NCBI RefSeq assembly: GCF_016616235.1
Contig: NZ_CP067100.1
Coordinates: 496,001 to 560,000, forward strand
Origin: Bradyrhizobium diazoefficiens
GTDB taxonomy: Bacteria > Pseudomonadota > Alphaproteobacteria > Rhizobiales > Xanthobacteraceae
DNA length: 64,000 nucleotides
Reading direction: 5' to 3'
This document shows positions 55,568-61,109 of this stretch, in pieces (positions within the stretch are counted from its first letter, which is position 1; each line of letters opens with the position of its first letter). The notes beneath the pieces are model-generated. The model was given only the letters and a program-made list of their open reading frames with translations. It searched no databases and had not been told where the DNA came from. Both the position numbers and the translations under genes were made by a program.

Positions 55568-56926
55568 CATAGGCGCTAGGTTTAGCTCTGGACACGAAGA
55601 ATCTCGATATGATTCAAACTTGGGATGAAGATTCGTCCTGAGATTCTGGATCATTGGCCGGAGGTGAGTGCGCGACTTCCGGGAGGCTTCGACCTGGAAG
55701 CCACGGCGCGGTTACGCGGAGCCTTTACCCGGGCGCGGGAGATTAAGAACGCCGAGACGCTGTTGCGGTTGGCGCTTGCCTATGGCGGCTTGGGCATGTC
55801 GCTGCGTGAGACGTGTGTGTGGGCGGAAGCCGGCGGCATCGTCCGTTTGTCCGATCCATCACTGCTCGATCGGCTGTGTAAAGCCGCGCCCTGGCTTGGT
55901 GACATTGTGGCTGCGCTGATCGCCGAACAGGCCAAAATGACGGCGGGGAGCTGGGTTGGGTATCGCCTGCGTGCACTCGACGGAACCTCGATCTGCGAAC
56001 CGGGAGCTGACCGTACGACGTGGCGGCTGCACGTCGGCTACGATCTGGCAACGGGTCAGGTTGATCAGCTTGAGCTAACCGACGTGCATGGCGCGGAGAA
56101 TCTTCAGCGCCTCACCTACGCACACGGCGATATCGTGCTGGGCGACCGCTATTATGCGAGGCCGCGCGATCTGCGGCCGGTGATCGAAGCCGGTGCAGAC
56201 TTCATCGTGCGGACTGGCTGGAACTCGTTGCGCCTGTTGCAGGCCAATGGCGAGCCCTTTGATCTGTTTGCCGCTCTCGCGGCTCAGTCGGAACAGGAAA
56301 GCGAGCTGCAAGTTCGCGTCCACGAGGGCCAGACAAAGACTCCACCGCCGGAGCCGCTGATCCTGCGCCTCGTCGTGCGACGCAAGCCGCCGGAGCAGGC
56401 CGAAACCGAGCGAAAGCGCCTGCTCAAGGATGCCAAGAAGCGCGGCAAGCAACCCGATCCACGCAGTCTCGAGGCGGCGAAGTACATTCTTCTCCTTACC
56501 TCGCTGCCAGTCGCCACCTTCCCACCGGCCGATGTCCTCGCCCTCTATCGCTTCCGCTGGCAGATCGAGCTGGCATTCAAGCGGTTCAAGAGCTTAGCCG
56601 GGCTCGACATGCTGCCAGCCAAGAAGCCTGAACTTGCGCGGGCGTGGATCTACGCCAGACTGATCGTCGCCATCATCGCTGAACAGATCGCCGGGCAAGT
56701 CCCGGACTCTTTCCCCTCTGAGTTCGGAACCACCACAAGCAAGCCCATCGCGTTGGCGCCTCATGAAGATCGCCCTGGCGACCGTTCGTGCCGCCATTCG
56801 TGGACCACTTCTCTGGCAGGCTTTCTGTAATCTCTTCACCCGAGCCCGCCGGCACTTCTGCGAACCGCCACGCCGGCGCAGAAAACAATGCGACTATCTA
56901 CACAAACGCATAACCTAGCGCCCATG
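55568..56926 (+). mobile_element. IS4-type insertion sequence, copy 2 (1359 bp)
   Basis: The ends are CATAGGCGCTAGGTT and, reverse-complemented, CATGGGCGCTAGGTT. An 11-bp target duplication CCCCTCCAGGG flanks it (55557-55567 and 56927-56937). Same orientation and exact length as copy 1. It stands 21 bases beyond the stop of the GNAT gene at 56947. Confidence 0.95.
55625..56830 (+). CDS. IS4-family transposase, copy 2
   Basis: A 401-residue DDE transposase, homologous over its whole length to copy 1. Asp in RALDGTSICEPG, Asp in IVLGDRYYARPRDL and the YREK pattern in YRFRWQIELAFKRFKS are all present. The differences from copy 1 are scattered substitutions, many at third codon positions, without frameshift. 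It should therefore be functional. Confidence 0.96.
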   Translation: MKIRPEILDHWPEVSARLPGGFDLEATARLRGAFTRAREIKNAETLLRLALAYGGLGMSLRETCVWAEAGGIVRLSDPSLLDRLCKAAPWLGDIVAALIAEQAKMTAGSWVGYRLRALDGTSICEPGADRTTWRLHVGYDLATGQVDQLELTDVHGAENLQRLTYAHGDIVLGDRYYARPRDLRPVIEAGADFIVRTGWNSLRLLQANGEPFDLFAALAAQSEQESELQVRVHEGQTKTPPPEPLILRLVVRRKPPEQAETERKRLLKDAKKRGKQPDPRSLEAAKYILLLTSLPVATFPPADVLALYRFRWQIELAFKRFKSLAGLDMLPAKKPELARAWIYARLIVAIIAEQIAGQVPDSFPSEFGTTTSKPIALAPHEDRPGDRSCRHSWTTSLAGFL

Positions 56927-57692: not shown

Positions 57693-57962
57693 CTATTCAG
57701 CCGCCTCTGCGATCGGGAGTACCGATACGAAGGTGCGGCCGTTGGCTTTAGCCTGGAACGCAACACGACCCTCGACCTTGGCGAACAGAGTGTGGTCCGT
57801 GCCCATGCCGACATTAAGGCCGGGGTGCCAGGTGGTGCCGCGCTGACGCGCAATGATGTTGCCGGGAGTGACGATCTCCCCGCCGAACGCCTTGATGCCG
57901 AGGCGCTTACCCTTGGAATCGCGTCCGTTACGCGATGAACCGCCTGCCTTTTTGTGAGCCAT
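57693..57962 (-). CDS. rpmA: 50S ribosomal protein L27
   Basis: An 89-residue protein beginning [22 protein letters not shown], the conserved N-terminus that reaches the peptidyl-transferase centre. [22 protein letters not shown] is the family signature. Second gene of rplU-rpmA; the spacer between them is 102 bases. Confidence 0.99.
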
Positions 57963-58064: not shown

Positions 58065-58451
58065 CTATTCGGCGGCTTCCGCTGTCGGCTCCTTGGCCAC
58101 CTTCTCCCGCTTCGGACGCGGGCCCTTGGTGGGCTTGGCGTTGTCCGTCAGGATCTCGCTGACGCGCAGCACCGTGATTTCGTCGCGGTAGCCGCGCTTG
58201 CGGCGCGAATTCTTGCGGCGGCGCTTCTTGAACGCGATGACCTTCGGCCCCCGCTTGTGGTCGAGCACCTCGACCGCAACGGAGGCGCCTGCCACCGTCG
58301 GAACGCCGAGGACCGGCGTGTCGCCGCCGACCACGAGGACTTCGTTCAACTGCACGATCGAGCCGACTTCGCCTTCGATCTTGCCTACTTCGAGAACATC
58401 ATCCGGCACGACGCGGTATTGCTTGCCGCCGGTTTTGATGACTGCGAACAT
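58065..58451 (-). CDS. rplU: 50S ribosomal protein L21
   Basis: A 128-residue protein. MFAVIKTGGKQYRVVPDDVLEVGKIEG and KVIAFKKRRRKNSRRKRGYRDEITVLRVSEI are typical of L21. The C-terminal tail beyond about residue 105 is Lys/Pro/Glu-rich and longer than in enterics, common in alphaproteobacteria. It has a clear promoter upstream. Confidence 0.99.
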   Translation of the reverse strand: MFAVIKTGGKQYRVVPDDVLEVGKIEGEVGSIVQLNEVLVVGGDTPVLGVPTVAGASVAVEVLDHKRGPKVIAFKKRRRKNSRRKRGYRDEITVLRVSEILTDNAKPTKGPRPKREKVAKEPTAEAAE

Positions 58452-58801
58452 CGTTTTTTCTCCGTGTTCAATCCCGGCCTCGGGACGAACATCGTCCGGG
58501 CCGGCTTTTTGTCAGTCGCTATGGGTTTAAGCGCGTTTTGTGCGGGCGGGAGTTATCCCTTTGAAAGCCCACGCAAAAACAAGCGGCGCGAGAAACGCCC
58601 CGCGCCGGCTGTGGGACTTATAGCCGCTGGTCCCGACAAGTCAAGGAAAAGCCGGCGAAAACGGCCAGATTTGAAGGATTTGGCGGCCCGCAAAGCTCGC
58701 TTATCGAACAAGGCCGCCTTTCCGAATCTGCGGCCGGTTTGCAACCAACGAGTTCCCGCGCCGTTGTCAAGGCCGGAACAGGTAAGCGGGCAAGGGCACC
58801 G
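58452..58801. other. 350-base divergent region between rplU and the ROK gene
   Basis: It carries the rplU promoter (58617-58644) and, on the minus strand, a roughly 160-base rplU leader. No gene is seen. The plus-strand ROK promoter is not clear. Confidence 0.6.
58617..58644 (-). promoter_or_regulatory. Sigma-70-type promoter of rplU-rpmA
   Basis: On the minus strand TTGACT (58639-58644), 16-base spacer, TATAAG (58617-58622). Near-consensus elements in the right place give a leader of about 160 bases before rplU. Confidence 0.65.
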
Positions 58802-59941
58802 ATGGCAACGGACGAACTGGTCAAGACAACGGGCATCGCCCAGCACGGGGCGAGCCGCCTGCCCTCGGTCGACGTCGACAGCTTCAACGTCGAGATCAAG
58901 GACGAGGACGGTTTTCTCGGCGACCGCGCCAGCAAGGGAGCGTTTCGCGAGATCCTCGAGGAGTGGCGCAAGCCGTTGCGCAAGAGCGGCGAGGATCCGT
59001 TCGGCGACGAGCCGTCCGACAAGATCAGCAAGAAGACCCTCGATGCCGTTCTGGTCGGCGACGATACCGAGGCCACGGCCGTCGTGCACAGCGCGATCGA
59101 GGAGTTCGCGCAGGAGCTGGCTTACGTCACGCGCCGGTTTCTCAAGACCAAGGCCTGGGCCAAGACCGAGTGCATCGTGGTCGGCGGCGGCTTTCGCGCC
59201 AGCCGGCTCGGCGAAATTGCCATTGCCCGGGCCGAGATCATTCTCAAGTCGGAGGGCTTCAAGGTCGATCTGGTGCCGATCCGCTTCGATCCGGACGATG
59301 CCGGATTGATCGGCGCGCTGCATCTCGCACCGACCTGGATTTTCGAGGCCTATGACAGCATTCTCGCGGTCGACATCGGCGGCACCAACATCCGCTGCGG
59401 GATCGTCGAGACCCGCTGGAAAAAGGCGTCCGACCTGTCCAAGGCCGTCGTCTTCAAATCCGATCTGTGGCGCCACGCCGATGACGAGCCGAGCCGCGAA
59501 ACTGCGGTGAAGCGGCTGGTCAAGATGCTCGAGGGCCTCATCGAGGACGCCGAAGCCGAAGGTTTCAAGCTCGCGCCCTTCATCGGCATCGCCTGTCCCG
59601 GCGTGATCAACGCGGACGGCTCGATCGAGAAGGGGGCGCAGAACCTGCCGGGCAATTGGGAGAGCAGCAAGTTCAACCTGCCGGCGAGCCTCGTCGAGGC
59701 CATCCCGACGATCGGCGAGCACGACACCGCGATCCTGATGCACAATGACGGCGTGGTTCAGGGCCTTTCGGAAGTGCCGTTCATGCAGCATGTCGAGCGC
59801 TGGGGCGTGCTCACCATCGGCACCGGGCTCGGCAATGCCCGCTTCACCAACCGCCGCAAGAACGGCAACGGCAAGGACCGTGATTCCACGGAGAACGGCA
59901 AGAAGAAGGGCAAGGAAAACAACAAGAACGACAAGGAGTAA
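58802..59941 (+). CDS. ROK-family sugar-kinase-like protein with permuted motif order
   Basis: A 379-residue protein. The usual ROK C-terminal half comes first: GDDTEATAVVHSAIEEFAQELA then the adenosine motif VVGGG (about 127-130) and DDAGLIGALHLAP (165-177). The N-terminal half follows: ILAVDIGGTNIRCGIVE (187-203), IACPGVIN (263-270), NLPGNW (281-286), HNDG with the presumed catalytic Asp316, and LTIGTGLG (337-344). The Cys/His zinc motif of ROK kinases is absent. The last 35 residues are a Lys/Asn/Gly-rich disordered tail. The hexokinase fold could still close. The substrate, and even kinase activity, are unproven. It is monocistronic, divergent from rplU. Confidence 0.85.
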   Translation: MATDELVKTTGIAQHGASRLPSVDVDSFNVEIKDEDGFLGDRASKGAFREILEEWRKPLRKSGEDPFGDEPSDKISKKTLDAVLVGDDTEATAVVHSAIEEFAQELAYVTRRFLKTKAWAKTECIVVGGGFRASRLGEIAIARAEIILKSEGFKVDLVPIRFDPDDAGLIGALHLAPTWIFEAYDSILAVDIGGTNIRCGIVETRWKKASDLSKAVVFKSDLWRHADDEPSRETAVKRLVKMLEGLIEDAEAEGFKLAPFIGIACPGVINADGSIEKGAQNLPGNWESSKFNLPASLVEAIPTIGEHDTAILMHNDGVVQGLSEVPFMQHVERWGVLTIGTGLGNARFTNRRKNGNGKDRDSTENGKKKGKENNKNDKE

Positions 59942-60108: not shown

Positions 60109-60972
60109 TCAGCTCCAGCCGATGCGCTGAAAGAAGGCCGAGATCTCCGCGGCCGCGCGATCCGGATCCTCGCGATGGGGGAAGTGTCCGACGCCGGTGA
60201 ACATCGCAAGATCGACATTGCTGAAGGTCTCGCCCAGCCGGTCGGTCCAGGCATAGGGAAACAGCGGATCGTGCTCGGCCCAGCGCACGCAGGTCGGCAC
60301 CTCGATCGGCGGAAGCGGTTTCGCTTCACCTTTCATCATCGCGACGCGCCCGGCATGCGAGGCGCGGTAATGCGCAAAGCCGCCGGCGAGATTGCCGCCC
60401 TTGAAGAAATTGTCGCCGAACGCGTCGAGCACGTCGTCGAAGGCATCTTTGCGATGCGCCCAGCCTTTGAGGAAATGGCTGATATAGAGCCGGCAGCTCT
60501 CGCGGCTCGCGCCGACCAGCGCCGGCGCCATCTCCATCTGGTGGAAGGACTGATACCAGATGTGGTTGAGCCGATCAGGGGCGGCCATGCGCGGCCCGAT
60601 GCCGGGATAGACGAAATCGAAGAAGAAAAGCCCTGCGAGCCGCTCGCCCGCCTGTCGGGCCAGCGGCTGCATCACCGCGCCGCCGACATCGTGGCCGACC
60701 ACTCCGAATCGCGCGATGCCGAGTCCGTCCATCAGCGCCAGCATGTCTGCGGTGTGGCCGTCCGGCCCGAAAGGCCCATCCGGCTTGTCGCTGTCGCCGA
60801 AGCCGCGCAGATCGGGCGCGATCAGCATGAATCGGTCGGCGAGCCGCGCCATCACCGGCTCCCAGGTCAGCCAGAATTCCGGCCACCCGTGCAGCAAAAG
60901 CAGCGGTTTTCCCTCGCCCGCGCGGACCAGGTGGAAATTGGCGCCGTTGGCCTTGATCGTGAGGTGCTCCAT
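60109..60972 (-). CDS. Alpha/beta hydrolase (dehalogenase/epoxide-hydrolase type)
   Basis: A 287-residue hydrolase started at MEHLTIKANGANFHLVRAG. The oxyanion motif is LLLHGWPEFWLTWEP, the nucleophile is Asp in VVGHDVGGAVMQ, and the acid/base pair sits in EHDPLFPY and GVGHFPHREDP. An Asp nucleophile marks haloacetate dehalogenases and epoxide hydrolases rather than esterases. DLRGFGDSDKP is typical too. The true substrate is unknown. Transcribed alone, toward the ROK gene. Confidence 0.9.
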   Translation of the reverse strand: MEHLTIKANGANFHLVRAGEGKPLLLLHGWPEFWLTWEPVMARLADRFMLIAPDLRGFGDSDKPDGPFGPDGHTADMLALMDGLGIARFGVVGHDVGGAVMQPLARQAGERLAGLFFFDFVYPGIGPRMAAPDRLNHIWYQSFHQMEMAPALVGASRESCRLYISHFLKGWAHRKDAFDDVLDAFGDNFFKGGNLAGGFAHYRASHAGRVAMMKGEAKPLPPIEVPTCVRWAEHDPLFPYAWTDRLGETFSNVDLAMFTGVGHFPHREDPDRAAAEISAFFQRIGWS

Positions 60973-61109
60973 GGCGGTTCCCTGAAGGTGAAAAAGGGAT
61001 GGAGGCAAGCGAGGCTGCGGATTTTCGCCTTTCGCGCCTTGTCTGGCCCGCCGTCCTCGCCTATTACACGGCCCGACCACAGGGGTTCCTGCCCCTCACG
61101 GCACCTTCA

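Follow-up and report, generated by a model that had tools for sequence, protein, structure and literature searches.

How can a protein carry the signature motifs of a ROK-family sugar kinase and yet carry them in the wrong order? The question is raised by a gene in a 64,000-nucleotide stretch of Bradyrhizobium diazoefficiens DNA (assembly GCF_016616235.1, contig NZ_CP067100.1, positions 496,001 to 560,000), henceforth the window, whose own numbering is used throughout. The coding sequence at 58802..59941 (+ strand) starts with ATG at 58802, stops at 59939-59941 and encodes 379 residues, and its limits match the starts and ends of its relatives. Linear ROK proteins run P1 (the phosphate-1 motif) - CPG - ND - GTG - zinc - GGG - GA, whereas the order here is GGG - GA - P1 - CPG - ND - GTG. 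An original prediction, made from the window sequence alone, had interpreted this as a circular permutation of the ROK domain. Translation places GGG at residues 128-130, DDAGLIGA at 165-172, DIGGTN at 191-196, CPG at 265-267, NDG at 315-317 and GTGLG at 340-344, just as the prediction had read them, and the zinc motif is indeed missing from the 379-residue protein. We conclude that the circular permutation is almost certainly real, as swapped profile matches, a whole-length alignment when the protein is cut near residue 180, a single predicted fold and complementary matches in the PDB all attest.

The Pfam ROK profile (PF00480) recognizes the protein at 31.4 bits against a cut-off of 22.9. 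In the NCBIfam models of N-acetylmannosamine kinases, positions 206-286 and 213-286 align with residues 87-176 and 101-176 of the protein, whereas the ROK glucokinase model (TIGR00744) aligns residues 188-345 with positions 1-137 and the polyphosphate glucokinase model (NF045942) residues 188-350 with positions 3-142. Taken together, the ROK glucokinase, polyphosphate glucokinase and beta-glucoside kinase models put residues 187-352 on the first 142 model positions. A profile of 12 linear ROK proteins of the same class repeats the swap weakly (87-176 on 215-297 at 10.1 bits; 187-277 on 3-78 at 7.7 bits). For profile-profile alignment with hhalign, 44 of 193 proteins were kept as non-redundant representatives (from 195 loci with the gene; L030 and L152 were dropped for length) and set against the profile of the 12 alphaproteobacterial linear ROK proteins. 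In native order the result was two swapped pieces with scores of 51 and 44. Upon restoring the linear order by a cut at 180, a single piece of 277 columns spanned 3-297 of the 305 profile positions (score 82, E 6.4e-11). This outcome depended on the cut: among 22 cuts, alignments of 274-279 columns arose solely for the five at 174-188, with the top score at 180, whereas 235 columns were obtained at 134, 154 and 170 and 222 at 114; with the remaining 13 cuts the alignment broke into separate pieces, none longer than 101 columns.

AlphaFold2 returned one confident fold, with residues 1-13 of low confidence and a predicted local distance difference test score (pLDDT) below 50 at residues 354-379. 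Structural aligners that follow chain order fitted the full model mainly through one of its halves, so we modelled and searched half 1 (residues 14-183) alone. The ROK two-domain fold is predicted to be retained, the two halves matching complementary stretches of the same solved ROK kinase structures with the junction at 143/144 of 5nck and 553/554 of human GNE. VIA-align searches with half 1 alone found ROK entries at ranks 1-13, with other ASKHA proteins interspersed thereafter, and gave clean ranges in the C-terminal half of 5nck, 2yhw, 2hoe and 5f7p. It might be argued that two unrelated domains, brought together by a recent fusion or an assembly error, mimic swapped ROK motifs, and Foldseek lends this some colour, as half 1 alone finds nothing at E<=0.001 (rank 1 is a pilus model at E 0.13, and the best ROK entry, 2hoe, is second at E 0.26). 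However, the model is a single confident fold whose halves fall on complementary parts of the same ROK entries, the near-whole-length profile alignment appears only for cuts near 180, and the gene is conserved in many genomes; an origin from unrelated domains is already contradicted and exceedingly improbable. The original prediction had itself envisaged two unrelated domains as the outcome that would overturn it. Instead, half 1 alone resembles ROK and ASKHA entries by VIA-align, though weakly by Foldseek alone, and the VIA-align matches to ROK rule out an unrelated domain there.

Some results nevertheless speak against a permuted ROK protein. The rotated hhalign score of 82 exceeds that of each native piece but not their sum. 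No HMMER score rose upon rotation, whether with Pfam, phmmer or the linear-ROK profile: the rotated sequence matched Pfam ROK in a single stretch (rotated 14-306 on profile 2-246) at 30.8 bits versus 31.4 in native order, phmmer against the PDB still matched the halves separately, and a rotation scan did not discriminate between cuts. Flat totals are what local scoring should give, since it does not respond to where the chain is cut. TIGR00744 and NF045942 each score 25.9 bits, below their curated cut-offs of 260.35 and 250. Finally, many VIA-align rows for half 1 begin at about residue 15-20 of the target, so that the start of the model often lies on an N-terminal strand.

Where did the permutation place the new chain ends? 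In the rotated alignment His15 (58844..58846, +) lies on the His of the ExGH motif, and residues 37-48 (GFLGDRASKGAF; 58910..58945, +), which contain no cysteine, lie on the zinc motif CxCGxxGCxE. Therefore, the natural termini fall in the loop between the strand that follows GTGxG and ExGH, adjoining the zinc/ExGH segment as the original prediction had supposed. Residues 14-178 (58841..59335, +) correspond to the C-terminal half of a linear ROK protein, from the ExGH/zinc segment to the adenosine motif and the last helix, with Gly128-130 (59183..59191, +) as the adenosine-site motif. Residues 185-352 (59354..59857, +) correspond to the linear N-terminal half plus the strand after GTGxG; they contain the phosphate-1 motif DIGGT (191-195; 59372..59386, +), CPG (265-267; 59594..59602, +), Asn315-Asp316 (59744..59749, +), with Asp316 at the catalytic-base position, and the phosphate-2 motif GTGLG (340-344; 59819..59833, +).

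The residues kept in at least 95% of the 44 representatives include His15, Gly40-Asp41, Gly128-130, Asp165, Asp191, Gly193-194, Asn196, Pro266-Gly267, Gln280-Gly284, Trp286, His314-Asn315-Asp316, Gly340-Gly344 and Asn345. Asp316 is present in all 44 and His15 in 43 (Asn in L192), while Thr195 is replaced by Ser in nine. Judged from the alignment, the ATP-site and catalytic-base positions are intact; the role of the catalytic Asp in ROK kinases is described in a passage of PMC10465942. The glutamate of ExGH, expected three residues before His15, is kept in one of the 44 representatives, and neither the GCxE glutamate nor the zinc cysteines are conserved. In ROK kinases, the glutamates of ExGH and GCxE contact the sugar. 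Four linear polyphosphate-glucokinase-like (PPGK-like) proteins of the same class also have no Cys motif, so the loss of zinc need not stem from the permutation and, on sequence comparison, may have predated it.

Is the permuted order a peculiarity of this genome? Relatives occur in 26 of 41 near genomes, comprising all 25 of the genus (the window's own included) and one of another family. Of 397 genomes in the host order, 61 gave a match: 57 hold a near-full-length relative at 48-100% identity, and four (G250, G253, G391 and G410) show fragments only. Of 385 genomes in the class, 17 gave a match, 16 of them near full length and one (G469) weak and partial. For the phylum the figure was 52 of 398; here 22 matches are near full length, five of them from outside the class, and the other 30 are weak partial matches to linear ROK proteins. 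A scan of named genomes yielded 342 relatives, with 78 of the best 80 titled Bradyrhizobium, and 342 related places rule out an assembly artefact. Among plasmid records, 204 of 207 matches cover at least 80% of the query, mostly from Rhizobium and Sinorhizobium, with one Roseateles in the tally; where annotation is given it reads 'ROK family protein', or in one case 'hypothetical protein'. Since the near-full-length relatives align colinearly with the window protein, they share its permuted order, and they align to ROK across both halves rather than to another family in the first. A search with the rotated profile (299 phylum genomes, E<=1e-6) found no unpermuted orthologue: 17 genomes matched, 16 through the permuted gene as swapped pieces and G955 over 8-165 only. 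Compared with six relatives, the window copy has a ratio of nonsynonymous to synonymous substitution rates (dN/dS) of 0.09-0.19, which indicates purifying selection and rules out a pseudogene. From this distribution, the lack of a colinear orthologue in that search and the low dN/dS, we conclude that the permutation is old and maintained.

Seven Bradyrhizobium loci (L020, L027, L028, L030, L119, L120 and L168) represent a second permuted-ROK copy, at about 80% identity. Genome G007 has extra copies in pieces on contigs C5, C132 and C144, two of them adjoining fragments on C5 and the others at contig ends. L077, titled Frankia sp. RB7, is a Bradyrhizobium-like locus with the gene at 84% identity and rplU-rpmA; probably the record is mislabelled or its assembly contains foreign DNA. 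In the literature searched (titles, abstract starts and selected passages, a partial coverage), we found no description of a permuted ROK family. A guess that the S. meliloti pSymB gene is SMb20472 was dropped, as this gene is annotated arcB2 in the relevant passage of PMC7268258. A separate ROK regulator on pSymA is described in a portion of PMC6200981.

How does the permuted protein compare with known ROK systems? With the ROK glucokinases (TIGR00744; S. griseus 3vgk, T. thermophilus 3vov) it shares the predicted fold, the P1, P2 and adenosine motifs and the catalytic Asp, and after rotation the linear alphaproteobacterial profile aligns with the family as described above. It differs from them in chain order and in the lost zinc cysteines and ExGH/GCxE glutamates, and it lies far below their model's cut-off. 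The polyphosphate (ATP) glucokinase / glucomannokinase type (1woq), whose NF045942 cut-off is likewise not reached, is linear, unlike the permuted protein, and the PPGK-like proteins, also unlike the permuted family, have Glu at the ExGH position in three of four cases (judged by eye). N-acetylmannosamine kinases (human GNE 2yhw/2yhy, F. nucleatum 5nck, E. coli NanK 2aa4) are linear too, and most carry the zinc site and ExGH. The model also matches the ROK fold of the repressors Mlc, NagC and Lmo0178. ROK repressors carry an N-terminal DNA-binding domain; no N-terminal helix-turn-helix or DNA-binding domain was found in the permuted protein (Pfam, E<=10), and residues 1-13, to which AlphaFold2 gives low confidence, leave too little space for a domain ahead of the ROK part. 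Because the annotation says only 'ROK family protein', a function transferred from the linear kinases or repressors of the family may be incorrect.

The upstream regions point to stress regulation. A promoter-like element, GCAAC-N16-CGTTGT, lies 61 bp before the ATG (58741..58767, +), one base off the EcfG -35 consensus, and is unique in its own genome at <=3 mismatches. For comparison, GGAAC-N16-CGTT is given as the R. etli EcfG1 consensus in a passage of PMC3892343. The 195 loci with the gene provided 147 non-redundant upstream regions, divided, with the help of a hand list and of each protein's identity to that of the window, into 92 of chromosomal Bradyrhizobium type, 7 of second copies and 48 others. 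In 73 of the 92, G[CA]AAC-N16/17-CGTT occurs at nearly the same place as the EcfG sites elsewhere, and none of the 92 has a consensus EcfG site. About 60 bp ahead of the start, chromosomal Bradyrhizobium copies show a fuller, highly conserved form, G[CA]AACCAACGGGTTCC-N4/5-CCGTTGT. In 52 of the 92 regions an internal AAC offers a second spacing, of 12-15, to CGTT, so that a -35/-10 reading is ambiguous. The window element is a putative, non-consensus relative of the EcfG promoter, and the conserved spacer suggests that a further factor is bound besides a sigma factor. Outside this set, GGAAC-N16/17-CGTT (N15-17 allowed) is present in 18 of 55 regions, 17 of them at 53-90 bp before the start (L149 at 206). 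The expectation for 55 regions is 0.36 from the rest of the same loci, and Markov shuffles gave a mean of 0.18 and a maximum of 2 in 300. Since some come from related Rhizobium plasmids, the 18 regions are not fully independent. Among the second Bradyrhizobium copies, L030 and L168 have a consensus EcfG-type promoter. On this promoter evidence, the permuted-ROK gene seems to be part of the EcfG general stress response in many Hyphomicrobiales, and the family is probably stress-induced in several proteobacteria.

The neighbourhoods add a metabolic hint. Eight of 225 loci (L165 and L194 being the same place) have an otsB (trehalose-phosphatase) homologue: divergently and about 124 bp from the gene in Rhizobium plasmids and L165, divergently also in L135, and on the same strand about 0.7 kb off in L130. 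At L192 (7067-9744, -) a same-strand run holds a linear zinc-less PPGK-like ROK gene, a PfkB kinase, a trehalose-phosphatase and then the permuted ROK gene, and at L191 and L193 sugar-transporter or xylulokinase genes adjoin it. Ferritin-like genes lie beside five of the seven second Bradyrhizobium copies, and also in L126 and L129 (one genus) and L187. Together, the EcfG-type promoters and trehalose-phosphatase neighbours point to a testable role in rhizobial stress survival.

What, then, might the protein do? We lean towards a permuted phosphotransferase of the ROK fold (ASKHA), acting as a stress-linked sugar or polyol kinase. Its chain passes from the ExGH/zinc segment through the adenosine motif and C-terminal helix to DIGGT, CPG and Asp316, and ends with the strand after GTGLG. 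The protein would still bind ATP (or polyphosphate) and phosphorylate a sugar or polyol, with His15 and family-specific N-terminal residues replacing ExGH and the GCxE glutamate in the substrate pocket; the product, to judge by promoters and neighbours, may be a sugar phosphate that feeds the metabolism of trehalose or other osmolytes. A bolder proposal, which we hold only tentatively, is that a permutation fixed deep in proteobacterial history put the ROK chain ends in the substrate-binding loop. The new, flexible N-terminus with His15 would have become a mobile lid replacing zinc/ExGH, joined in many Bradyrhizobium copies by a basic C-terminal tail, in a stress-induced enzyme of new substrate or regulation, such as a kinase of an osmolyte pathway. 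If this is true, annotation pipelines record a distinct subfamily merely as 'ROK family protein'. Either way, that a much-studied kinase fold has a conserved permutant in nature offers a probe of how far ASKHA proteins tolerate moved termini, and it raises the question whether the ROK zinc/ExGH element is dispensable once the chain opens beside it.

A stress-linked kinase faces objections. Hexokinase activity could be lost, as the ExGH and GCxE glutamates are not conserved. GGAAC-N16-CGTT occurs nowhere in the window, L192, whose neighbours are the most sugar-operon-like, has Asn at position 15, and neighbours vary widely between genera, most without a common theme (30 open reading frames picked of 82 listed). 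The chief competitor, which we consider rather unlikely, is that the permuted protein has kept the ROK fold but lost catalysis, serving the stress response as a sensor or scaffold that binds ATP or a metabolite. The two lost glutamates, the lack of a single conserved metabolic operon and the EcfG-type promoters would all fit such a sensor, and the ROK family contains many regulators. However, this reading has to contend with Asp316 in all 44 representatives and conserved phosphate motifs, with the lack of a Pfam-detectable DNA-binding domain (E<=10), and with the sugar or trehalose genes that adjoin the gene at several loci.

A different proposal concerns ancestry: a zinc-less PPGK-like ROK protein would have undergone tandem duplication and trimming of its ends to give the permuted form, which would phosphorylate glucose with polyphosphate or ATP. 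The canonical N-half aligns better with the four alphaproteobacterial PPGK-like proteins (E 4.5e-12) than with the 12 linear ROK proteins (E 2.4e-5), FastTree groups the permuted family with the former (support 0.853), these too are without the Cys motif, and the gene run at L192 holds both forms. But the other half aligns to the PPGK-like profile over at most 12 columns, yet aligns to the linear ROK profile; the branches of the tree are long; and no unpermuted orthologue emerged from the 299 genomes, where tandem ROK-ROK intermediates were not searched for. We regard this origin, too, as possible but doubtful.

Returning to the window gene, the Lys/Asn-rich tail at residues 354-379 (59861..59938, +) has low model confidence and is probably disordered. 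It does end the protein, as the original prediction had noted, but it does not follow GTGLG directly: a strand lies between, with NA 345-346 conserved in at least 95% of the 44 representatives. Counted after position 351, six of the eight window-like representatives have tails of 16-34 residues (L120 and L124 have 6 and 8), and the other 36 have 0-13, except for 19 in L132; beyond Bradyrhizobium, most members have a short tail. Divergent from the gene lie rplU (58065-58451, -) and rpmA (57693-57962, -), and downstream is an alpha/beta hydrolase-like open reading frame (60109-61080, -), all named by eye from sequence. Among the best 80 of the 342 relatives, 73 loci exceed 9 kb; all 73 have rplU and rpmA, and 47 the hydrolase. 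Near the ribosomal-protein genes, an open reading frame of 401 residues (55625-56830, +) resembles, by eye, an IS4-type transposase.
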